From the IMG/VR virus record IMGVR_UViG_3300025098_000341, positions 1 to 21,170 of that record: a stretch of DNA of 21,170 nt. One strand, 5' to 3'. Both the position numbers and the translations under genes were made by a program. Each line of letters starts with the position of its first letter. Positions within the stretch are counted from its first letter, which is position 1. The notes beneath the pieces were generated by a model. That model saw only the letters and a program-made list of their open reading frames with translations. It did not search any database and was not told the DNA's origin. Shown here in pieces: positions 4,253 through 13,002 of the stretch. The stretch comes from a virus.

Positions 4253-4591
4253 ATGGCAAATTCATTCGTAACTAACCTTTATCCCGTACCAAGTGGAACA
4301 GCTAATGACCACAGATTGACAGTTGATGCTACCGCTGGTGGCGTTCTGTTCTCTGGAGCAAACGATGACAACACAAGTGCCTTCGATTCATTGACTAAAT
4401 ATATCGCTATGGATGTCCAAGACGCTGATGTATTTATGACATTCGATGGTAGTGCACCCACAACATCAAACGGTCACAAGTTATTCGCTGGTAGAAGTTA
4501 TACCTTCAGCAAAGAGGCAGCTGTCAAAGCTAAGTTCATTCGCTCTGGTGGTACTTCCGCAAAGATTCACGCATCTCAGTTCACTAACTAA
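4253..4591 (+). CDS. Small beta-rich virion protein, unknown
   Basis: A 112-aa protein of predicted all-beta type with many Ser, Thr, Gly and Asp. Visible features are TVDATAGGVLFSGANDD, a strand pattern SLTKYIAMDVQDADVFMTFD, then GSAPTTSNGHKLFAG. The DGSAPTTSNGHKL element resembles small beta-sandwich proteins that recur near tail and fibre genes of marine phages (from memory). It may be a decoration, collar or fibre-attachment protein; this is inference. It starts 21 bases after the adaptor stop with no Shine-Dalgarno motif, and its stop overlaps the fibre gene start by one base (TAATG at 4589-4593), suggesting coupled translation with the fibre. Confidence 0.7.
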   Translation: MANSFVTNLYPVPSGTANDHRLTVDATAGGVLFSGANDDNTSAFDSLTKYIAMDVQDADVFMTFDGSAPTTSNGHKLFAGRSYTFSKEAAVKAKFIRSGGTSAKIHASQFTN

Positions 4592-7344
4592 TGTCTTCAG
4601 AACAACTAGCTGACGGAGTCAACCCTTTGGATGCTGAGTTGGCGGCAACTTGGGACGTACTTAAAGGATACTCTGGTAGAGATACCGATCTAGGAATAGC
4701 TCGTAGATTCGGTGGTGCCGCAGCTGCGTACTCATTGCGAGATATTGGTGCAATGAATGGAAGGGTTGTCAAGGCTCGTAGAAGTGAAGATGATTTAGAA
4801 GAAGACTTCTCGGCTAATCAAGTACAAGATGGTACTTTAGAAAAATGGGTAAACGGTGAGTTAGAAAGCACACTACCAGCAGATGTAGCAACAGCCGCAG
4901 CTGCTTATAGTCTTCGTAAGGTAAAAGCTAGTTACGGAGCACCTACAACTAAGCTAGATGGAAGTGATGGTTTCCCATCCAACTTAAATGATTTACCTTT
5001 AGGTAATTATAGTAACGCAATCAGTGGATCTACATTTACAGTAGGTCATTTTAGTACAAACTCTGGTGCAGCTGATTCAGTAAGTCTTTCTTTAGGGAAT
5101 AATAGCTTTATATTAAGAGCTAATAAGGCAACGTCTGGAACACAATACGGTCACGTAATTCGTGTTCAAGGACTAAGTGTAGGTAAAAGATATACAGTCA
5201 CTGGAGAATTTAAAGTAACCAAAGGAAACGGAAGTGGTACAGTAAGAATGGCTGTAGATATATCTGACGCAACATCTGAAACAGATGAAAAAAGTATTGC
5301 GACTACAAATTCTACATTTACGCCATTTGAAGTTACTGCCTTATTTAATGATTCAACCGCAAATGTAAACTTTATTGACTTTACCTTAAATGATTTTGGC
5401 GGAGCTAACTCCGGAAGCGGTCCAATAGAAGGCGAGTTCAGAAATATTAAGATAGTAGAGTCCGACAATAGAGTTGTAAGACTTCGCAGAAGTTCTGATA
5501 ATGTAGAAGTAGATGTAGATTTCGATACAGAAGGTAAGTTAAGTACTAGCTCATTGGTCGGTGATATAGCTGAACAAGGTGGCGAAAGTGGAAGCACAAC
5601 TGCTACTACCCTTGGAGATTTTATTAGTGGAACAGATGCATTCGTCCACACTTGGTACGACCAAGCTGGGTCAAACGATGCAGTTCAAGAGACTGCTGGT
5701 AACCAACCAAAGATTGCAGAGAATGGAGCATTAATTACTGAAAATAATAATACTGCTATAGATTTTGAGGAGTCAAGTTCTCAGTTTTTATTAATTAGTA
5801 AAGCATTTGCTAATTCAAGTGGAGCAGATGTTTCTATTTTTTCTGTATCAAAGAATGTTGCGACTGATGGAAGCAATGCTCACCCAATTATATCTAATAG
5901 AAGTGGTTCTACCAACGGTTATCAATTCGGATATGATGGTACAGACCATTTGGAGTTTGTGCATTTCGCAAATACAGCAAACAATGCGGTTTCAACTGAA
6001 ACATATGAAACACAGATTTTAGGTTCAGCTATAAGAGATAATCTTACTTTTGATATTTTTGTTAATTCGGATAAAAGAGCTGACAATACGGCTAGTAGTT
6101 ATGTCGCTTCAACTGATTTCACTAGAATAGGTGGTAATGAAAATGCTTCTAAATTTATGGATGGCACTATGCAAGAAATTGTCATTTTTGAGTCAGACCA
6201 ATCAGACAATCGCTTCAAGATTGAGTCCAACATCAATAACTATTATGGTTTGTACAATGATGCGAATGAGTTTAGTGGAAACCCAGTGGCTGCTGGTGGG
6301 GCTTCAGCCGCAATTACATTGACTAATGAAAGTAAGACTGGATTTACTGCTGAGATTAGTTCCACAAGTGGTACTAAACAAATAAACTTCCCTCTGCTAA
6401 ATTCTCTTGTTAGTGGAGATGATTACTTTGTTTCCTTTGATTATACAAGCACATCTACATCTACAGTAGGAGTTAAGCCAAGGACTGCCGCATTAGGTAG
6501 TGCAAGTAATGATGTTATCTCAGCTACTAATAGTGGATTCTATGGAGGAACTGGAGATGCTGCCCACAATGGATTTGATGTAAATAACACAGCTACAGTA
6601 TTGTCATTTCAAACGACAGCACAAAGTTTTACCTTTACTGTATCTAATTTAAGAGTATCTCGCATAGCTCGTAATGGTTTCGTAGAAACTTTATACGACC
6701 AAAGTGGTAATGGTGATGATATGACTCAAGCAACTGCTGGAAGTCAACCAGCTATTGTTCAGAATGGTGGACAAGTAAAACTTGAAAATGGTAAGCCAGC
6801 CTTTAAAGGAGATGGAACAGATGACCACTTAGAGGCTTCTTATTTCTATAGTGCTGGTGAAGTTACTGCTATGAGTACATTTAGTGTTATATCTAATCGT
6901 GCAGATACTGTGGCTGAAAGAGTTATTATTTCAGCTGGGTCTGGTGTTAGTACTACTTATCCGGGATTCAATACTGCTTTAGATAAAACTACTAATTCTA
7001 ACCCTTTTGAACAAAGAGTCGCAAATACAAGTGCAACAAAAGAAACAGCTTTACTAAATATAGCAAGAGATGGAGATATACTTGGGTCTACTTTCTTTAC
7101 AAAGGATGGTACTCATTTAGTAAAGGCTACTACTAAAGATGGTACAACTTCAACATCGGCAGCTATTACAGTAGGTGCATACAGAGGTAGTACTTTAAGT
7201 GGAAAGTTAAGAATTGGTGCAACTCGTACATTTGCACTACAAAGGTTTTTTGATTACCCTATAGCAGAGACTATGGTCTTTAGGGCTGATTTAAGAGACG
7301 AAGGAATAGAAGATGAAATTAATCAATTTTATAATATAGGATAA
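4591..7344 (+). CDS. Tail fibre / receptor-binding protein with AbfB/LamG-like repeats
   Basis: A 917-aa, beta-rich, Ser/Thr/Asn-rich protein. Residues about 40-110 hold two AAAYSLR openings, each followed by a sequence like VVKARRSEDD or KVKASYG. A further VVRLRRSSDNVEVDVDFD precedes the segment HTWYDQAGSNDAVQETAGNQ (Trp at residue 355). A second related block, ETLYDQSGNGDDMTQATAGS, begins near residue 699. In known proteins the order AYSLR, VRRSSDN, WYDQSG, QPxI, FDGxxD marks the arabinofuranosidase-B-catalytic-like/LamG-type jelly-roll module widely reused in phage tail proteins, usually for binding glycans. The region between (residues about 145-290) resembles a carbohydrate-binding beta-sandwich. 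I infer a host-recognition fibre or collar appendage; enzymatic activity is not shown. It is coupled to the 112-aa gene upstream. Confidence 0.83.
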   Translation: MSSEQLADGVNPLDAELAATWDVLKGYSGRDTDLGIARRFGGAAAAYSLRDIGAMNGRVVKARRSEDDLEEDFSANQVQDGTLEKWVNGELESTLPADVATAAAAYSLRKVKASYGAPTTKLDGSDGFPSNLNDLPLGNYSNAISGSTFTVGHFSTNSGAADSVSLSLGNNSFILRANKATSGTQYGHVIRVQGLSVGKRYTVTGEFKVTKGNGSGTVRMAVDISDATSETDEKSIATTNSTFTPFEVTALFNDSTANVNFIDFTLNDFGGANSGSGPIEGEFRNIKIVESDNRVVRLRRSSDNVEVDVDFDTEGKLSTSSLVGDIAEQGGESGSTTATTLGDFISGTDAFVHTWYDQAGSNDAVQETAGNQPKIAENGALITENNNTAIDFEESSSQFLLISKAFANSSGADVSIFSVSKNVATDGSNAHPIISNRSGSTNGYQFGYDGTDHLEFVHFANTANNAVSTETYETQILGSAIRDNLTFDIFVNSDKRADNTASSYVASTDFTRIGGNENASKFMDGTMQEIVIFESDQSDNRFKIESNINNYYGLYNDANEFSGNPVAAGGASAAITLTNESKTGFTAEISSTSGTKQINFPLLNSLVSGDDYFVSFDYTSTSTSTVGVKPRTAALGSASNDVISATNSGFYGGTGDAAHNGFDVNNTATVLSFQTTAQSFTFTVSNLRVSRIARNGFVETLYDQSGNGDDMTQATAGSQPAIVQNGGQVKLENGKPAFKGDGTDDHLEASYFYSAGEVTAMSTFSVISNRADTVAERVIISAGSGVSTTYPGFNTALDKTTNSNPFEQRVANTSATKETALLNIARDGDILGSTFFTKDGTHLVKATTKDGTTSTSAAITVGAYRGSTLSGKLRIGATRTFALQRFFDYPIAETMVFRADLRDEGIEDEINQFYNIG

Positions 7345-7346
7345 TT

Positions 7347-7595
7347 ATGAGCGAAGAAACAATCAATTATTTAGTATACGATACAGAGGCTGATGCGATT
7401 GCAAGAGCAGACACAGAGGGTGCTAGACGAGGCTATGCTTACCACAGAGTAGGTTCTGGTACTCGCTACCACACTTACCCAAAAGTGACTGCTGACAGCA
7501 AGTATGCCCTTGTCGTAGACGGATACGAACTAACAGAAGATGAAGAGTCAGCTATTACAAATAGCGTCACCTTCCCAGCACCAGAGGAAGTCTAG
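7347..7595 (+). CDS. Small acidic protein, possible fibre-associated factor
   Basis: An 82-aa acidic protein (INYLVYDTEADAIARADTEG, later YALVVDGYELTEDEESAI). It begins two bases after the fibre stop, and an AGGAT sequence overlapping that stop may serve as its ribosome binding site. Genes of this size right after a fibre gene are often assembly chaperones, but I recognise no chaperone family here, so that role is only positional inference. Nothing in the sequence suggests a membrane segment or enzyme. It is one base from the start of the next small membrane protein and is probably co-transcribed with it. Confidence 0.7.
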   Translation: MSEETINYLVYDTEADAIARADTEGARRGYAYHRVGSGTRYHTYPKVTADSKYALVVDGYELTEDEESAITNSVTFPAPEEV

Positions 7596-7596
7596 T

Positions 7597-7755
7597 ATGG
7601 AAGAGACACTACAAAGATTATCCGTAGGAATCTTCGGATGGATAGCCACGGATACATTACAGAGCGTGGACCTTGTGCTTGGCGTAGTGTCTAAATCAGT
7701 TCTGATCACTTTAACAGTTTTATCAATCTATAAACTATGGAGGGAACTTAAATGA
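7597..7755 (+). CDS. Small one-helix membrane protein, holin-like candidate
   Basis: A 52-aa protein. Residues about 25-46 form a hydrophobic helix (DLVLGVVSKSVLITLTVLSI), followed by a short basic end YKLWRELK. The start at 7597 was chosen because it lies one base after the preceding stop, while an upstream in-frame ATG at 7540 would overlap the previous gene by 56 bases. The stop overlaps the next start as ATGA (7752-7755), a sign of coupling with the GTA-holin-like gene that follows. Together the pair looks like a holin with a partner (antiholin or pinholin-type), an inference from size, topology and neighbours. Confidence 0.72.
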   Translation: MEETLQRLSVGIFGWIATDTLQSVDLVLGVVSKSVLITLTVLSIYKLWRELK

Positions 7756-8159
7756 CACCAGAATTATTAGCAATGTTAGGTGGTGGAGCTTCTGGCTTTA
7801 TCTTTAAATTAGTAGGTACACTAGTACAAAATCAAGCAGCACTTACTAAAGGACTAATTGAAAAACAAAAAGCATCAGACGAAAGTGCCGATGCCGCAGC
7901 AGCTAGGGTAGATGCCTTTGGTGCTTGGACACGAAGAATTATTGTATTAACAGTTTTATTTGGCGTAATCATTGCACCATTTATTCTAGCAAATAGTGAA
8001 TCCGGCGTTACGATAGCTACTGATTACAGTAATTGGTTCGGAATCTTCAAAGGTACAAATTACCAAACTCTTCACGGATACATCATTCTCCCCGAAATCA
8101 AGACAGCCGTTATCAGTATAATCAGTTTCTACTTCGGAAGTGCAGCAGTAAGTAAATAA
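7752..8159 (+). CDS. Putative holin, GTA-holin (3TM)-like
   Basis: A 135-aa inner-membrane protein. Residues about 7-25 are glycine-rich and mildly hydrophobic (AMLGGGASGFIFKLVGTLVQ), a polar helix follows (NQAALTKGLIEKQKASDESA), then a strong helix at about 62-80 (RRIIVLTVLFGVIIAPFILA) and a last one at about 116-132 (IKTAVISIISFYFGSAAV). This arrangement matches holins of the gene-transfer-agent three-helix family, which form lesions that let endolysin reach peptidoglycan. The endolysin of this phage, encoded at 326-859, has no export signal, so a holin is expected. Other phage membrane proteins could have this layout. Confidence 0.72.
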   Translation: MTPELLAMLGGGASGFIFKLVGTLVQNQAALTKGLIEKQKASDESADAAAARVDAFGAWTRRIIVLTVLFGVIIAPFILANSESGVTIATDYSNWFGIFKGTNYQTLHGYIILPEIKTAVISIISFYFGSAAVSK

Positions 8160-8180
8160 TATGATCTGTAAACTTTGTAA

Positions 8181-9008
8181 ATGGATAAGCAAACTGCAAA
8201 ACAAAAACTCAAAGAACTGCGAGATTCTTTGTCCCAAGTATTGGAAGGCAAAGATTATCAAAGTGCTGAAGAAGTTAAAGAGCAGTCTGCTGAAGCTATC
8301 AAGCAAGCTAGGTCAGCTAGTAAGCAACTTAAAAAATCTCTTATCGAAAAAGTAAAAGACCTTCCGGTAGTACAGAAGGTAAGTGAACTAGGCACCGCTG
8401 GGAGTGTCGCTGTAAGTACAGCCGCAGTTGCTCAGACAACGGTTGCTGTAGATCAAACAGAAGTCTTCGTGGCAAACATCGCAAACGATGTTGTCGAAGA
8501 GCGTATCGAAGTTCCAATGTTCATTGATACCTTTGTTGATTTCCACGAGTTGAATGATTGGGGTCAAGTGGTTATCGCTGAGAAGATCGCTGCGGTTTCC
8601 GAACAGTCACAGATTTCTCAACCAGCTGTTGACGCTCCGGACACCACACAAGAAACCTCTCCTTCTTCAAATAGTTCTTCCGCCGAAAGTTCCTCTCAAA
8701 GCGATCAGCCACAACAAACTGATAAATCATCAGAGTCCCAAAGCCAAGAGCAAGAATCAAGAGAAGATAGTTCATCAGAAGAAAGTGAAGAGGTTAAAGA
8801 AAGCGATTCAGAACAAGATAAAGAAGATAAGCAAGAACAAACCCAAGAACAGCAAACTGAAGAACAGAAACAATCTCAAGAAAGTGAATCATCATCTGAG
8901 ACTAGCACAGAGTCCAATGATGTCAAGTCCGATTTACCCACAATAGAAACACCCTTTGAGCCAATGGATGGCGAGGTAAGCCCCCATAGGGAAGTATCAC
9001 CAGTATAA
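8181..9008 (+). CDS. Acidic Ser/Glu/Gln-rich protein with hydrophobic midsection, unknown
   Basis: A 275-aa protein of three parts. Residues 1-65 are a charged amphipathic helix region. Residues about 70-140 are more hydrophobic and Val/Ala-rich (TAGSVAVSTAAVAQTTVAVD, later VPMFIDTFVDF), possibly membrane-associated. Residues about 150-260 are low-complexity Ser, Glu, Gln, Asp and Lys, expected to be disordered, ending in a short proline-containing tail (HREVSPV). A stop lies directly before the ATG at 8181, fixing the start within this frame. It sits between the holin-like gene and two other small membrane proteins, so a role at the cell envelope during lysis, or in the virion, is possible. 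I do not recognise a family. The strong negative charge could also suit a DNA-mimic, which is speculation. Confidence 0.75.
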   Translation: MDKQTAKQKLKELRDSLSQVLEGKDYQSAEEVKEQSAEAIKQARSASKQLKKSLIEKVKDLPVVQKVSELGTAGSVAVSTAAVAQTTVAVDQTEVFVANIANDVVEERIEVPMFIDTFVDFHELNDWGQVVIAEKIAAVSEQSQISQPAVDAPDTTQETSPSSNSSSAESSSQSDQPQQTDKSSESQSQEQESREDSSSEESEEVKESDSEQDKEDKQEQTQEQQTEEQKQSQESESSSETSTESNDVKSDLPTIETPFEPMDGEVSPHREVSPV

Positions 9009-9010
9009 TA

Positions 9011-9181
9011 ATGGAATTTTTTAAATATATCTTCGATAACTACAAGGACAATATGCTCGGTATAGCATTTGCCTACATTGGTATAATATCAATAGTGATG
9101 ATGTTTTTGCCTAAGGATAACTTCATCTCTAAGCTCTTTCGAGAGTTTGCATCAATCTTTACATCCCTTTTCAAAAAATGA
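9011..9181 (+). CDS. Small single-pass membrane protein, unknown
   Basis: A 56-aa protein starting two bases after the preceding stop. Residues 1-14 are charged (MEFFKYIFDNYKDN), residues about 15-34 form a hydrophobic helix (MLGIAFAYIGIISIVMMFLP), and the C-terminal part is amphipathic with basic residues (KLFREFASIFTSLFKK). Its stop overlaps the next ATG as ATGA at 9178-9181, so translation of the PEP-CTERM-like gene is likely coupled to it. One helix plus an amphipathic basic tail is compatible with an accessory lysis protein or holin regulator, but no family was recognised. Confidence 0.72.
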   Translation: MEFFKYIFDNYKDNMLGIAFAYIGIISIVMMFLPKDNFISKLFREFASIFTSLFKK

Positions 9182-9459
9182 GTCACGAAGCCACAACGCG
9201 TCCACTAGCTGTAACATACTCTGATTACGATTGGGGTGATAACTTTGCATCAAATGATTATAATTACTTCTATGTACCTTCTATTCCAGAATGGGCATAC
9301 AGTGAGTTCGATGGATTACTATACGAAGGAGTACAGTACAATTGGAATGAAGTGGATTATAGACTTTCAGTAGAATACAACAGCGTTCCAGAGCCATCAT
9401 TTATTGGTTTATTTATGGGACTCTGTTTACTAACATTAACACTAATCAAGAGGAAATAA
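9178..9459 (+). CDS. Small protein with PEP-CTERM-like C-terminal sorting signal
   Basis: A 93-aa protein. Residues 1-69 are acidic and very rich in Tyr, Trp, Asp and Asn (DYDWGDNFASNDYNYFYVPS). The C-terminus reads V70-PEPS, a hydrophobic helix at about 75-90 (FIGLFMGLCLLTLTLI), then KRK. This is the layout of PEP-CTERM signals: a near-invariant Pro-Glu-Pro, a transmembrane helix and a short basic cluster, recognised in host bacteria by exosortases. No N-terminal signal peptide is visible, and no start codon exists upstream before the in-frame TAA at 9130-9132, so export is unexplained. Alternatives are a plain tail-anchored membrane protein or chance. It lies in the probable lysis/membrane block. 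Confidence 0.75.
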   Translation: MSHEATTRPLAVTYSDYDWGDNFASNDYNYFYVPSIPEWAYSEFDGLLYEGVQYNWNEVDYRLSVEYNSVPEPSFIGLFMGLCLLTLTLIKRK

Positions 9460-9461
9460 CT

Positions 9462-9542
9462 ATGGACAAATACGGAAAAGGAAGTTGCGGCGAAAGAGTC
9501 GGTAAAGGTAAAGGTAAAATGAAGAAAGGCTACGGTAAGTAA
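9462..9542 (+). CDS. Micro-protein, 26 aa, Gly/Lys-rich
   Basis: Translation gives MDKYGKGSCGERVGKGKGKM followed by KKGYGK. A good ribosome binding site (GAGGAA, formed by the last codons of the previous gene) lies upstream, and the stop overlaps the following ATG as TAATG (9540-9544). It has one Cys, high positive charge and no hydrophobic core, so it is probably an unstructured nucleic-acid-binding or virion-internal peptide. I call it a gene because of the ribosome binding site and the exact junctions on both sides; composition alone would not be enough. Confidence 0.6.
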   Translation: MDKYGKGSCGERVGKGKGKMKKGYGK

Positions 9543-9676
9543 TGCCCGGAGGACTTATATCAGTTGTAGTAATCGGAGACAAGAAGAAGGGTTCTTGCTG
9601 TTCAGCTTGTGCCGCAGAGAGTGAAGCAAAGGCTATACGCCGTCCTAGCGTAGGATCAACACGTAAGAAAGTATAA
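9542..9676 (+). CDS. Small basic Cys-containing protein, 44 aa
   Basis: The product begins MPGGLISVVVIGDKKKGSCC and continues with SACAAESEAKAIRR and a basic end (STRKKV). A CCSAC cluster of three cysteines lies at residues 19-23, after a short hydrophobic strand. Start and stop both sit in TAATG junctions with the neighbouring small genes. The triple-Cys cluster could bind metal or form disulfides, but a single CCxxC is too little to name a zinc finger. It belongs to a run of tiny basic proteins just before the tail nozzle-like gene. No family recognised. Confidence 0.65.
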   Translation: MPGGLISVVVIGDKKKGSCCSACAAESEAKAIRRPSVGSTRKKV

Positions 9677-9813
9677 TGGCTAAGATTTGTAAAAAAGGAA
9701 TCGCTTGGGCACGTAGGACTTTTGATAAGTATCCTAGTGCTTATGCTAATATGGCGGCTAGTAAGTACTGTAAAGATCCTAACTATGCCAAGAAATCTAA
9801 GAAGAAGAAATAA
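9676..9813 (+). CDS. Small basic protein, 45 aa, conserved-type in marine phages
   Basis: The product runs MAKICKKGIAWARRTFDKYP, then SAYANMAASKYCKDPNYAKK and ends SKKKK. It has two cysteines (residues 5 and 32), a central amphipathic helix with aromatic residues and a lysine tail. Similar short proteins with GIAWARRxFDxYPSAYAN-type cores are familiar from marine phage genomes (from memory), where their role is not established. TAATG junctions join it to both neighbours, so it is translated as part of one tightly coupled set. A DNA-binding or capsid-internal role is inferred only from charge. Confidence 0.72.
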   Translation: MAKICKKGIAWARRTFDKYPSAYANMAASKYCKDPNYAKKSKKKK

Positions 9814-10058
9814 TGGGTGAGCTCAAAAAGTGGAGAGAACAAAACTGGGTACGAATCGGAATTGACGGTTCAATCAAAGGACCTTGTGGAACCTCAAAAG
9901 ATAAGAAAAGACCAGACCGTTGTCTTCCAATGGCTAAAGCCAAGAGTCTCACTAAGTCTGAAAGAGCGGCTACAGCTCGCAAGAAAAAAGCTGGCGGAGC
10001 AAAAGGAAAACAATTTGTAAGTAACACACCAAAAGCAAAAGTAAGGAGTAAGAAGTAA
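9813..10058 (+). CDS. Small basic protein, DUF5872-like
   Basis: An 81-aa protein with the segment KKWREQNWVRIGIDGSIKGP followed by CGTSKDKKRPDRCLPMAKA and a lysine/arginine-rich C-terminal half (ERAATARKKKAGGAKGK). The order W-NWV-G-GPCG-K-RCLP-AKA matches the pattern I know from DUF5872-type proteins of marine phages and large DNA viruses. Function of the family is unknown; the two cysteines in the GPCG and RCLP elements may be functional. The basic tail suggests contact with nucleic acid or capsid. Start and stop overlap the neighbours as TAATG. The identification is from memory of the motif and should be read as a likeness. Confidence 0.78.
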   Translation: MGELKKWREQNWVRIGIDGSIKGPCGTSKDKKRPDRCLPMAKAKSLTKSERAATARKKKAGGAKGKQFVSNTPKAKVRSKK

Positions 10059-10459
10059 TGATTAAGATAGAGAGAAACCCAGACGGTAGCATTAAAGCTG
10101 CTTACAGTGTAGATGCTTCTGGTATGAGACTTTATGGTTCAGACCCAACTCCTATTCCAGTATTAGGCTCTATGCCCCAAGCTACTAAACCTTCATTAGA
10201 TGCTATTTTAGGAAATGTAAAAGTAGATCCAATTACTGGAAGATCTGGTCGAAGAACATTTGATGAGTTTAAAAATTTTATAAAAATAAATAAAGAATCT
10301 TTCATAAGAGATAAAGGAAAATTTGAAGGATTCAGAGGAGGAGGAATAAAAAGTTTCAATGCTATACTTGATGATCTACAAGAAGGTAAATTTGATAAAC
10401 TTACTGAAGAAGAAGCAAAGTACGTAGACGATTTAAAAAACAATAAAATTAATTTATAA
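10058..10459 (+). CDS. Hypothetical protein, 133 aa
   Basis: A mixed-charge protein opening MIKIERNPDGSIKAAYSVDA, with a proline-rich turn (SDPTPIPVLGSMPQATKP) and a helical C-terminal half (FDEFKNFIKINKESFIRDKG, then ILDDLQEGKFDKLTEEEAKY). An AAGGAG ribosome binding site precedes it and it is joined at both ends by TAATG overlaps. Local codon use is more AT-rich than in the flanking genes, especially from about 10250 to 10459, which may mean a more recent origin or a different expression level. No family recognised. Its place within the small basic cluster suggests a shared virion or late role, by inference. Confidence 0.72.
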   Translation: MIKIERNPDGSIKAAYSVDASGMRLYGSDPTPIPVLGSMPQATKPSLDAILGNVKVDPITGRSGRRTFDEFKNFIKINKESFIRDKGKFEGFRGGGIKSFNAILDDLQEGKFDKLTEEEAKYVDDLKNNKINL

Positions 10460-10704
10460 TGGCTATCGACAAAAAGAAGATGAAGTGCAACGTACCTCGC
10501 CGAGATGTTCAAGGCGGCAAGAAGTTCGTAGTAAAAGCTTGTGAAGGTGGTAAAGAAAAGATTATTCGTTTCGGAGATGCGAATATGAAAATCAAAAAGA
10601 ATATACCAGCTAGCAAGAAAAGCTATTGTGCTCGTAGTGCTGGCATTAAAGGCAAAGGAAAGATGTCCGCTAACTATTGGTCAAGAAAGGCTTGGGACTG
10701 CTAG
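10459..10704 (+). CDS. Small basic Cys-containing protein, marine-phage type
   Basis: An 81-aa protein. Recognisable elements are KMKCNVPRR near the N-terminus, VKACEGGKEKIIRFGDANMK (residues about 26-45), and a C-terminal NYWSRKAWDC. The pattern C-PRR, EKxxRFGDxNMxIKK, PxxxKSxxAR and YWSxKAW is one I associate with an abundant unassigned small protein of marine phages; the usual RHxC element is altered here to CARSAG. It has four cysteines and a high positive charge. It overlaps the previous stop as TAATG, and its stop ends right where the 765-aa tail gene begins. The function is unknown. Confidence 0.78.
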   Translation: MAIDKKKMKCNVPRRDVQGGKKFVVKACEGGKEKIIRFGDANMKIKKNIPASKKSYCARSAGIKGKGKMSANYWSRKAWDC

Positions 10705-13002
10705 ATGGCAAGATACGATACATACACTCGCTTCGATGACAGAATGTTGGAGGAGCTAGACCGCGGATTCATTGGATTCAACAATCGTCTACGCCCAGAC
10801 CAGTTGACCTCTGGTATTTTATTTGATAGCCAAAATGGTAGAATGGCTCAAAACGGCGAGTGGCAAACTCGTAAAGGTATTGATAATATTAAGGCACCTT
10901 TATCTGTTGGTGGTTCAGCTTTGACTTTACCTTTTGATTTAGATGACGGAGGAACAGAGCCACAGCTTAATGATAACGCCGTCAATGAGGTATACGGTTC
11001 TTGTATTTTCTCTGATCCCAACGATGAGTCCGAAAGCTATATAATTTTAGCCGCTAACACAAAAGCTGTAGCAATCAAAGTTTCAGATTCTAGTACTGAA
11101 TACGATTTAGCATATCCCGGAGGTGAGACCATTTCATCTCCAGTTGAAATGATTCAAGCATTTAATAAACTGATTATATTCCGCAAAGGAGATACACCCT
11201 TTGAAAAAGATTTATCCGCTACAAATATTAATACAGAGCCAACATTAGACAAGGTGTCAAGCGGAGAGTACAGTCAGCCAACTCAGATTGTTTGTGCCGC
11301 TGGTGAGTTCGCTTTGATTGAAAACCGAGGAGTAGTACACCAAACAGACGGAGTATCTCAAGGAGATATTATTTCAGTAGTAGGAGATAAAACACTTTCG
11401 GCAGATCAAACATCTGGTTTAGTAATCGGAGAAAGATTAACAGTAGCTAAAGTATTTACTGCTGGTTCTACTACAAGTATAACAAATGTAACTAAAGCAC
11501 TTATAACTGGAGGTGAGTTCGATGGATTATACAAAATTACGGCTACTGCTTCTGGTCACGGAAAAAATGTTGGAGATCCCATTACAATAGCTAATTTTGG
11601 TGACGTTAAGATTGACGGTAAAAGATTCGTAGCTGAAGTAAACGGAAATGATATAATATTTTATGTTCCACAGAATCCTTCTACTACAATTAGTGGAGAT
11701 GAAACTCTAGCTCTAGCCGCTGGATTTGAATTTTATTTGGACGCATCTAAGACAAGTACCCACGTAACAGATGGACAAAGCTTAACAAGTACACCAGTAT
11801 TTGCTCGCAAGGTTTCCGAAGGATTAGGATTCTCTCATATGCCAGCACCAGAGTACGGCGTATATCACCAACGCAGACTCGCGGTTCCCTATCGCTATAG
11901 CGTAGATGACGTAGCTGATACATATTCGGATCGTAAAATATTCGATGAGATTCTTATATCAGATATTCTTGATACAGATACATACGACCAAGTATACGGA
12001 CAGTTTAGATTCAATGCTGGTAGATCTGATTTTAACGTAGGTATGTTATCATTCTCTGACGATAAGTTAGTTGTATTCAACAGAAATAGCATTCATATAG
12101 TAGTAGGAAACGGAGACTTAGGCGGATTCCAATCTCAGTTACTTACAGATGAAGTTGGATTAACTGCCAAAAACTCAGTGATTCAAGTCGGTAATCAGAT
12201 TATATTCTTATCAGACAACGGTGTTTACGGACTGAGCTTCGTGGACTTATATAACCTTCGCGGAAATGAAGTACCACTATCCGAAAGTATCCAAAAGACA
12301 ATAGATACAATAAACAAAGCACACGTAGATAAAGCTAGTGCTGTATACTTTGATAACAAATACTACTTAGCTGTTCCTACTGGAACTTCTGAGGTTAATA
12401 ATACTTTGTTGATTTACAATTTCTTAAACAAAAGTTGGGAGTCCATAGATACTGTAAACAATGTAGATTTAAGTGGTAGTACTTTCTCATCCTTTGAGTT
12501 CACTAAATTATTAGTAGCCGGTAAAGGTTTAAAAAGAGGGGTGTACGTAACAAACACAGACGGTGGTATTCATAGGCTAGAAGTATTCGCCGATGGTATT
12601 GATAGAGTAATCACAGATATTGGTAGTACTACAGAGAAAGAAACTAGAGTTCAAGGTTCAGCTACTACTAGAATGTTTACACTAGGTTCCATAGACCGCA
12701 AGAAGTTCAACAACTTCGAGCTTCATTTGCAGTCCGGTCCAGATAACTCATCTGATGTTTCTATATCTGCGGTATCCGAAAATTTAGACTCCGAGCCAGC
12801 TCTTGATCTCAAGGATGCCAGTGATTATATCGGCGGAGTATCGATAGCTCCAGACGAGGATGTATCCATTAGAGGACGTATTGGAAACAAAAGAGCCTAT
12901 GGCTTACAAGTGACTTTAACAAGCATTCTAGGTAGACCTAGATTTAGATCTCTCAAAATCGCCGGAGCTGAGACGTTCCGCTCGACAAGTAGTGTACAAT
13001 AG
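10705..13002 (+). CDS. Tail tubular B / tail nozzle-like structural protein
   Basis: A 765-aa protein, beta-strand-rich throughout. The N-terminal part (YDTYTRFDDRMLEELDRGFI then GFNNRLRPDQLTSGI, later NGEWQTRKGIDNI) resembles the opening of podovirus tail nozzle proteins, where RPDQL and TRKG-type motifs recur. The middle holds a 'YHQRRLAVPYRYS' segment and FSDDKLVVFNRNSIHIVVGN, typical of the propeller-like body of T7 gp12/P22 gp10-type proteins, followed by FLSDNGVYGL and WESIDTVNNVD. Such proteins form the tube below the adaptor that contacts the cell. Length matches the family (about 700-800 aa). It starts at the stop of the preceding small gene. Confidence 0.8.
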   Translation: MARYDTYTRFDDRMLEELDRGFIGFNNRLRPDQLTSGILFDSQNGRMAQNGEWQTRKGIDNIKAPLSVGGSALTLPFDLDDGGTEPQLNDNAVNEVYGSCIFSDPNDESESYIILAANTKAVAIKVSDSSTEYDLAYPGGETISSPVEMIQAFNKLIIFRKGDTPFEKDLSATNINTEPTLDKVSSGEYSQPTQIVCAAGEFALIENRGVVHQTDGVSQGDIISVVGDKTLSADQTSGLVIGERLTVAKVFTAGSTTSITNVTKALITGGEFDGLYKITATASGHGKNVGDPITIANFGDVKIDGKRFVAEVNGNDIIFYVPQNPSTTISGDETLALAAGFEFYLDASKTSTHVTDGQSLTSTPVFARKVSEGLGFSHMPAPEYGVYHQRRLAVPYRYSVDDVADTYSDRKIFDEILISDILDTDTYDQVYGQFRFNAGRSDFNVGMLSFSDDKLVVFNRNSIHIVVGNGDLGGFQSQLLTDEVGLTAKNSVIQVGNQIIFLSDNGVYGLSFVDLYNLRGNEVPLSESIQKTIDTINKAHVDKASAVYFDNKYYLAVPTGTSEVNNTLLIYNFLNKSWESIDTVNNVDLSGSTFSSFEFTKLLVAGKGLKRGVYVTNTDGGIHRLEVFADGIDRVITDIGSTTEKETRVQGSATTRMFTLGSIDRKKFNNFELHLQSGPDNSSDVSISAVSENLDSEPALDLKDASDYIGGVSIAPDEDVSIRGRIGNKRAYGLQVTLTSILGRPRFRSLKIAGAETFRSTSSVQ

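Follow-up and report, generated by a model that had tools for sequence, protein, structure and literature searches.

A PEP-CTERM-like membrane anchor on the exchangeable last gene of a phage cassette that includes a holin-like gene

Introduction

In layout, the closest described counterparts of the phage protein examined here are the PEP-CTERM proteins, the family associated with EpsH/exosortase and captured by the models TIGR02595 and PF07589. According to Haft et al., these proteins carry a near-invariant PEP motif close to the C-terminus, and about 97% of them possess a signal peptide; their ectodomains are poor in Lys/Arg and Cys, and those with long cytosolic tails are possibly non-functional (PMC1569441). 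A single organism can encode many of them, as illustrated by the 65 PEP-CTERM proteins of Verrucomicrobium spinosum (PMC1569441). The titles and abstract openings of the literature on PEP-CTERM, phage and exosortase hold no description of a phage-encoded PEP-CTERM protein, and we claim no priority.

Here we analyse a stretch of 21,170 nucleotides (the window; positions 1 to 21,170 of the IMG/VR virus record IMGVR_UViG_3300025098_000341) in which the last gene of a five-gene cassette, hereafter the slot gene, encodes a protein with a tail of this kind. Like PEP-CTERM proteins, the slot proteins combine a C-terminal [VI]PEP[SA], a helix of about 16 residues and a Lys/Arg end with diverse ectodomains that are poor in basic residues and Cys and have no known homologues. 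They depart from that family in that the window's type has no signal peptide, the window protein scores just under both model cut-offs, the second Pro is replaceable among relatives, some members carry long cytosolic tails, and the gene sits in a phage operon instead of forming a single-gene unit. The second point of comparison is provided by holin-linked lysis modules (including spanin-type envelope proteins), which likewise place small membrane proteins beside a three-segment holin-like gene among structural genes; the present cassette also resembles them in having been swapped as a unit in one relative (L024). It differs from holin and spanin modules in that the slot anchor is C-terminal rather than N-terminal, in that no lipoprotein partner was seen, and in that no match to a known holin, antiholin or spanin model was obtained.

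Results

Translation of the slot gene (9178–9459, + strand) yields a protein of 93 residues, MSHEATTRP...VEYNSVPEPSFIGLFMGLCLLTLTLIKRK, in which an acidic ectodomain (residues 1–69) is followed by VPEP (residues 70–73; codons 9385–9396, + strand), a single hydrophobic segment (residues 74–90) and KRK, the last three residues of the protein. An earlier note on this DNA, made from its letters and open reading frames, had described VPEPS, a 16-residue hydrophobic helix and KRK in this order, and the translation bears it out. The same note had stated that there is no N-terminal signal peptide and that none can be added upstream. This also stands: we looked for a hydrophobic segment at the N-terminus of the window protein and found none, and the 15 codons that separate ATG 9178 from the upstream in-frame stop contain no start codon, so that a signal peptide cannot be gained by extension. 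A chance origin of the tail is unlikely, since [VI]PEP fell in place in 89 of 200,000 shuffles of the 73 residues before the helix. When 3,679 ORFs were surveyed (from the window, the related phage loci collected by then, two reference phages and one cellular contig), such a tail occurred only in the slot family and in two genuine cellular PEP-CTERM proteins. Structural searches added little, with AlphaFold models of the slot protein and of the 8181 product at low confidence (one at pLDDT 61 and the other at 48, uninformative) and nothing useful matched by profile searches of the PDB.

The tail is real and conserved. Scans of IMG/VR for the slot gene recovered 25 and then 52 encoding loci, and 33 distinct full-length relatives all have P71 and E72, with P73 present in 32 of them. 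The codons of the motif change synonymously among these relatives (CCA/CCG/CCT for Pro, GAG/GAA for Glu) while most helix positions vary in residue, a combination that indicates selection on the motif. In the search for the tail in related phages that the earlier note had proposed, all 79 distinct slot tails scored with a pattern that allowed P[ED] carried PE plus a helix. The helix itself comes in several kinds, among them the classical IPEPSTYVLFAGFAVLL...IKRRK of L049–L051 and the VPEPSTYALLAGFAVLIF...IKRRNK of L052. A spurious ORF or chance tail, which the short length of the gene and the absence of a match in the phage record collection might suggest, can essentially be discounted: it is refuted by the conservation data, namely more than 50 homologous loci, synonymous turnover and a fixed gene neighbourhood.

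The set was then divided by ectodomain into 81 distinct slot proteins, 54 of the window's type and 27 of a type with an apparent signal peptide. Every protein scored keeps Pro-Glu ahead of the helix, and the second Pro behaves differently in the two types. It is retained in 51 of the 54 window-type proteins (replaced by Ser twice and by Gln once) and in 8 of the 27 others, where Met (9), Leu (8) and Ser (2) take its place; on the tree of the signal-peptide type, in which many forks are weak, Pro and Leu interchange several times. According to the earlier note, absence of a profile hit together with loss of the motif in related phages, the helix being kept, would reduce the tail to a plain anchor. 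This applies in part: in 22 of the 81 distinct slot proteins, 3 of them of the window's type, another residue (Ser, Gln, Met or Leu) stands in place of the second Pro and the helix remains. A further peculiarity is seen in four relatives (L024, L031, L033 and L034), whose slot proteins retain VPEP and extend beyond the helix into long extra cytosolic tails that are amphipathic and Lys-rich.

Profile scores place the family at the border of the PEP-CTERM models. The window protein reaches 15.6 bits against TIGR02595 (cut-off 16) and 15.1 bits against PF07589 (cut-off 20.7), so the profile check put forward in the earlier note fails for this protein; it succeeds for some relatives, with L049 (17.5), L113 (16.8) and L052 (21.4) above the first cut-off and L052 alone (21.8) above the second. 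None of the 54 distinct window-type proteins has a signal peptide, and an apparent one is found in the exchangeable type of L064 and L119. Given the missing signal peptide in the window's type, the replaceable second Pro and the long tails of four relatives, the slot family is PEP-CTERM-like in layout and, as judged from its sequences, cannot be filed as a PEP-CTERM member. For the same second-Pro replacements and long tails, the entry into the exosortase pathway that the earlier note had ascribed to the protein is unsupported as stated.

Recognition of the anchor by a host exosortase is nevertheless possible, especially for proteins of the window's type, which almost always keep PEP and show synonymous codon turnover in it. 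If the slot protein were a true substrate, VPEP would be recognised at the periplasmic face, the anchor cut and the ectodomain passed to the surface or the exopolysaccharide, where it would block a receptor or alter the surface. The match of PEP[AS], helix and basic end to the PEP-CTERM models, the three relatives over the TIGR02595 cut-off (one of them also over that of PF07589) and an ectodomain poor in Lys/Arg and Cys, like those of PEP-CTERM proteins (PMC1569441), all speak for it, as does the occurrence of the nearest holin-like gene in a phage of Puniceicoccales, in the Verrucomicrobia, a phylum with PEP-CTERM-rich members (PMC1569441). Set against these points are the loss of the second Pro in 19 of 27 signal-peptide-type and 3 of 54 window-type proteins, the scores of the window protein under both cut-offs, a signal peptide absent here and present in ~97% of the PEP-CTERM family (PMC1569441), and the four long C-terminal extensions. 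On balance we regard a true exosortase substrate as a possible but doubtful reading.

The leads to a host are few. Phage C75C1 is related to the window (its capsid protein is 65% identical), and both it (CDS0041/0046) and Verrucomicrobia phage P8625 (P8625_27/28) encode homologues of the genes at 7597 and 7752, that of 7752 at about 44% identity in both, but neither has 8181, 9011 or the slot gene. P8625, which infects a Puniceicoccales strain (PMC4642752), is the only lead with a named host, and one shared gene pair makes it a lead, not an assignment. No tRNA-based hints to the host were found, and a GTDB species scan of genome contigs returned no genome with the slot cassette and, as its only product, a cellular PEP-CTERM protein. 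The PEP-CTERM protein of the Sphingomonadaceae MAG BWSM_79 (L055, 9494–10210) contains VDYNSVPEPA, as the slot family does, and scores above both PEP-CTERM cut-offs, but it has an N-terminal part of its own with a signal-peptide-like start. The shared residues are no evidence of descent: the search pattern itself contained VDYNSVPE, and a local match of this extent is roughly what selection by chance would yield. In the same MAG, two adjacent genes with PEP-CTERM tails occupy L055 9494–11166.

Scanning with the 8181 and 9011 genes revealed that the same cassette position holds slot genes of several kinds. One kind, found in L064 (6420–7013), L119 (5998–6618) and their relatives, encodes 197–206 residues, with a hydrophobic segment at the N-terminus of the sort that marks signal peptides, and consists of an unrecognised secreted domain of about 150 residues on a reused anchor (the domain has no significant match in Pfam or NCBIfam and no match of note among phage records). 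The DNA of the helix and KRK anchor (9397–9456, + strand, in the window) is common to L064, with 63 of 67 nucleotides identical from residue 76 on and the junction just after the PE-x motif. Since a signal-peptide ectodomain is thus joined in L064 to the anchor that the window uses, the part preceding this anchor would be exported, with the N-terminus out and the C-terminus in. Together with this exchange, the charge asymmetry of the window-type ectodomains, which average 69.5 residues with 2.5 Lys/Arg versus 14.3 Asp/Glu and are also Cys-poor, implies the same topology and supports the outward-facing acidic N-terminal part proposed in the earlier note.

The slot protein would accordingly be anchored in the inner membrane, the acidic ectodomain facing the periplasm and KRK the cytoplasm. 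From what is established about Sec/YidC insertion, the short acidic N-terminal part of the window's type, which has no signal peptide, probably crosses as a translocated N-tail, and sister phages would achieve the same export by means of a signal peptide. The opposite arrangement, an ordinary tail anchor with the N-terminal part inside, the C-terminus outside and VPEP acting solely as a helix cap (an S69-x-x-E72 capping box), would suit the lack of a signal peptide, a helix that begins at residue 73 in the low-confidence AlphaFold model, and the frequency of PE as a helix start; but it would set KRK outside in violation of the positive-inside rule, and the same anchor lies under an exported-looking domain in L064. 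We therefore consider it highly unlikely. A programmed frameshift from 9011 into the slot gene, which would supply an N-terminal signal anchor, was also examined and rejected, as relatives do not keep the A-run ahead of the ATGA (they have AAGAAATGA and AAGCGATGA there).

The slot gene closes a cassette of fixed order on the + strand. The first gene (7597–7755) encodes a 52-residue protein with one transmembrane segment and lies just upstream of the holin-like gene (7752–8159), whose 135-residue product has three hydrophobic segments. Pfam held no match to the latter and its only match was phrog_38283, of unknown function; because no functional profile matched this or any other upstream gene of the cassette, the term holin-like refers to layout only. 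There follow a 275-residue protein (8181–9008) with a Lys-rich helical N-terminal part, a weak hydrophobic segment (residues 74–90), a conserved EER[IF]EVPxFID region and a long disordered tail rich in Ser, Glu and Gln, and a 56-residue single-transmembrane protein with a basic amphipathic C-terminus (9011–9181), the stop of which overlaps the slot start (ATGA). A counterpart of the latter (50–56 residues, with a transmembrane segment) precedes the slot gene by an ATGA overlap in every window-type locus that includes the start and upstream sequence; 8181 lies directly or nearly directly upstream of it, and 7752 and 7597 are usually found further upstream in relatives. The cassette occurs widely among uncultured phages, most of them marine; a search of 50,697 phage records gave no match to the slot gene or to 8181. 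The phage lysozyme gene (326–859; PF00959) is about 7 kb away, and the cassette has no physical linkage to an endolysin. Promoter and terminator sites were no more numerous in 7300–10800 than in shuffles. Upstream of the cassette, a large virion-associated protein (4591–7344, + strand; phrog_10356), possibly a host-range protein, differs among relatives much more than its neighbours do.

A candidate overlapping gene was noticed within the cassette. An ORF of 64 codons (8161–8355, + strand) begins one nucleotide past the stop of the holin-like gene and continues across the beginning of 8181 in the +1 frame, its predicted product having a CxxCKWI start and a Lys/Leu-rich amphipathic end. The frame is open for 148–190 nucleotides in 38 of 46 distinct 8181 genes, with a median probability of 0.02 per gene against codon-usage draws (the genes are related and these probabilities are not independent), and synonymous shuffling of the window gene left it open in 19 of 5,000 cases. 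Synonymous change in 8181 is 0.25 in the overlap versus 0.355 downstream, and amino-acid change tends to be higher in the overlap.

Comparison of L024 (1–6204) with the window (7347–10704) shows that the slot gene and the holin-like gene have been replaced together. The block from 7597 through the holin position, 8181 and 9011 to the slot is 38–63% identical to the window, with a different three-segment protein in the holin place, and is flanked by genes (7347, 9679, 9813 and 10459) that are 90–100% identical; a diverged block between such flanks indicates that it moves as a unit in which the holin-like and slot genes travel together. Most helix subtypes accompany the same holin-like type, and the co-variation of the two genes rests on a single type-E event. 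Between the cassette and the head-closure gene, 9482–10704 (+ strand) holds a run of very small Lys/Arg-rich proteins whose order and number differ among relatives.

The modularity of the ectodomains, one of which is an unrelated signal-peptide domain attached to the same anchor, would also fit superinfection exclusion or a decoy, in which the ectodomain stays anchored and blocks the DNA entry or the receptor of a second phage, its exchange being driven by competition between phages. However, the slot gene lies among structural genes, adjoins the holin-like gene and is swapped along with it, and exclusion genes are more often expressed early. This explanation seems to us distinctly unlikely.

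Discussion

We give roughly an even chance to the reading that the slot protein, membrane-anchored and facing the periplasm, belongs to a late envelope cassette, linked to a holin-like gene, in which ectodomains are exchangeable and exosortase processing is not obligatory. Drawn from sequence comparison, this reading makes the slot protein the variable, membrane-anchored part of a cassette (7597, 7752, 8181, 9011 and 9178) whose target would be the host envelope, most likely at lysis and together with the neighbouring holin-like protein. The anchor would be a PEP-CTERM look-alike with Pro-Glu invariant at the membrane interface; recognition by an exosortase may serve in some hosts and would not be what conserves the tail across the family.

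Several observations favour this holin-linked envelope role: the ATGA-linked position after 9011, the PE and helix common to every tail scored, the exchange of ectodomains on the anchor of L064, the charge asymmetry, the joint swap in L024 and the variation of the second Pro on the tree. It is weakened by the fact that no lysis gene in the cassette is recognised by profile, by the single event behind the co-variation with the holin-like gene, by the near-fixation of PEP in the window's type, which exceeds the needs of a plain anchor, and by ectodomain exchange, which fits superinfection exclusion as well. A bolder proposal, that the cassette feeds exchangeable ectodomains (short acidic N-tails without a signal peptide or domains with one) into the host exosortase pathway and so remodels or blocks the surface during infection, appears to us rather improbable; if true, these phages would have a system that builds on the PEP-CTERM/exosortase pathway.

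The slot gene and its 8181 partner belong to a widespread cassette, and neither gene has a match in a large collection of phage records. Whether or not an exosortase reads the anchor, the locus combines a candidate overlapping gene with an envelope module that is linked to a holin-like gene and whose ectodomains are exchangeable, and we found no description of it. If an exosortase does not read the anchor, the slot family would provide a natural control on which part of a PEP-CTERM-like tail is needed merely for anchoring. If it does, phage biology would be connected with a pathway for surface sorting that otherwise has cellular substrates, and the tail would serve as a sequence tag for the host group.
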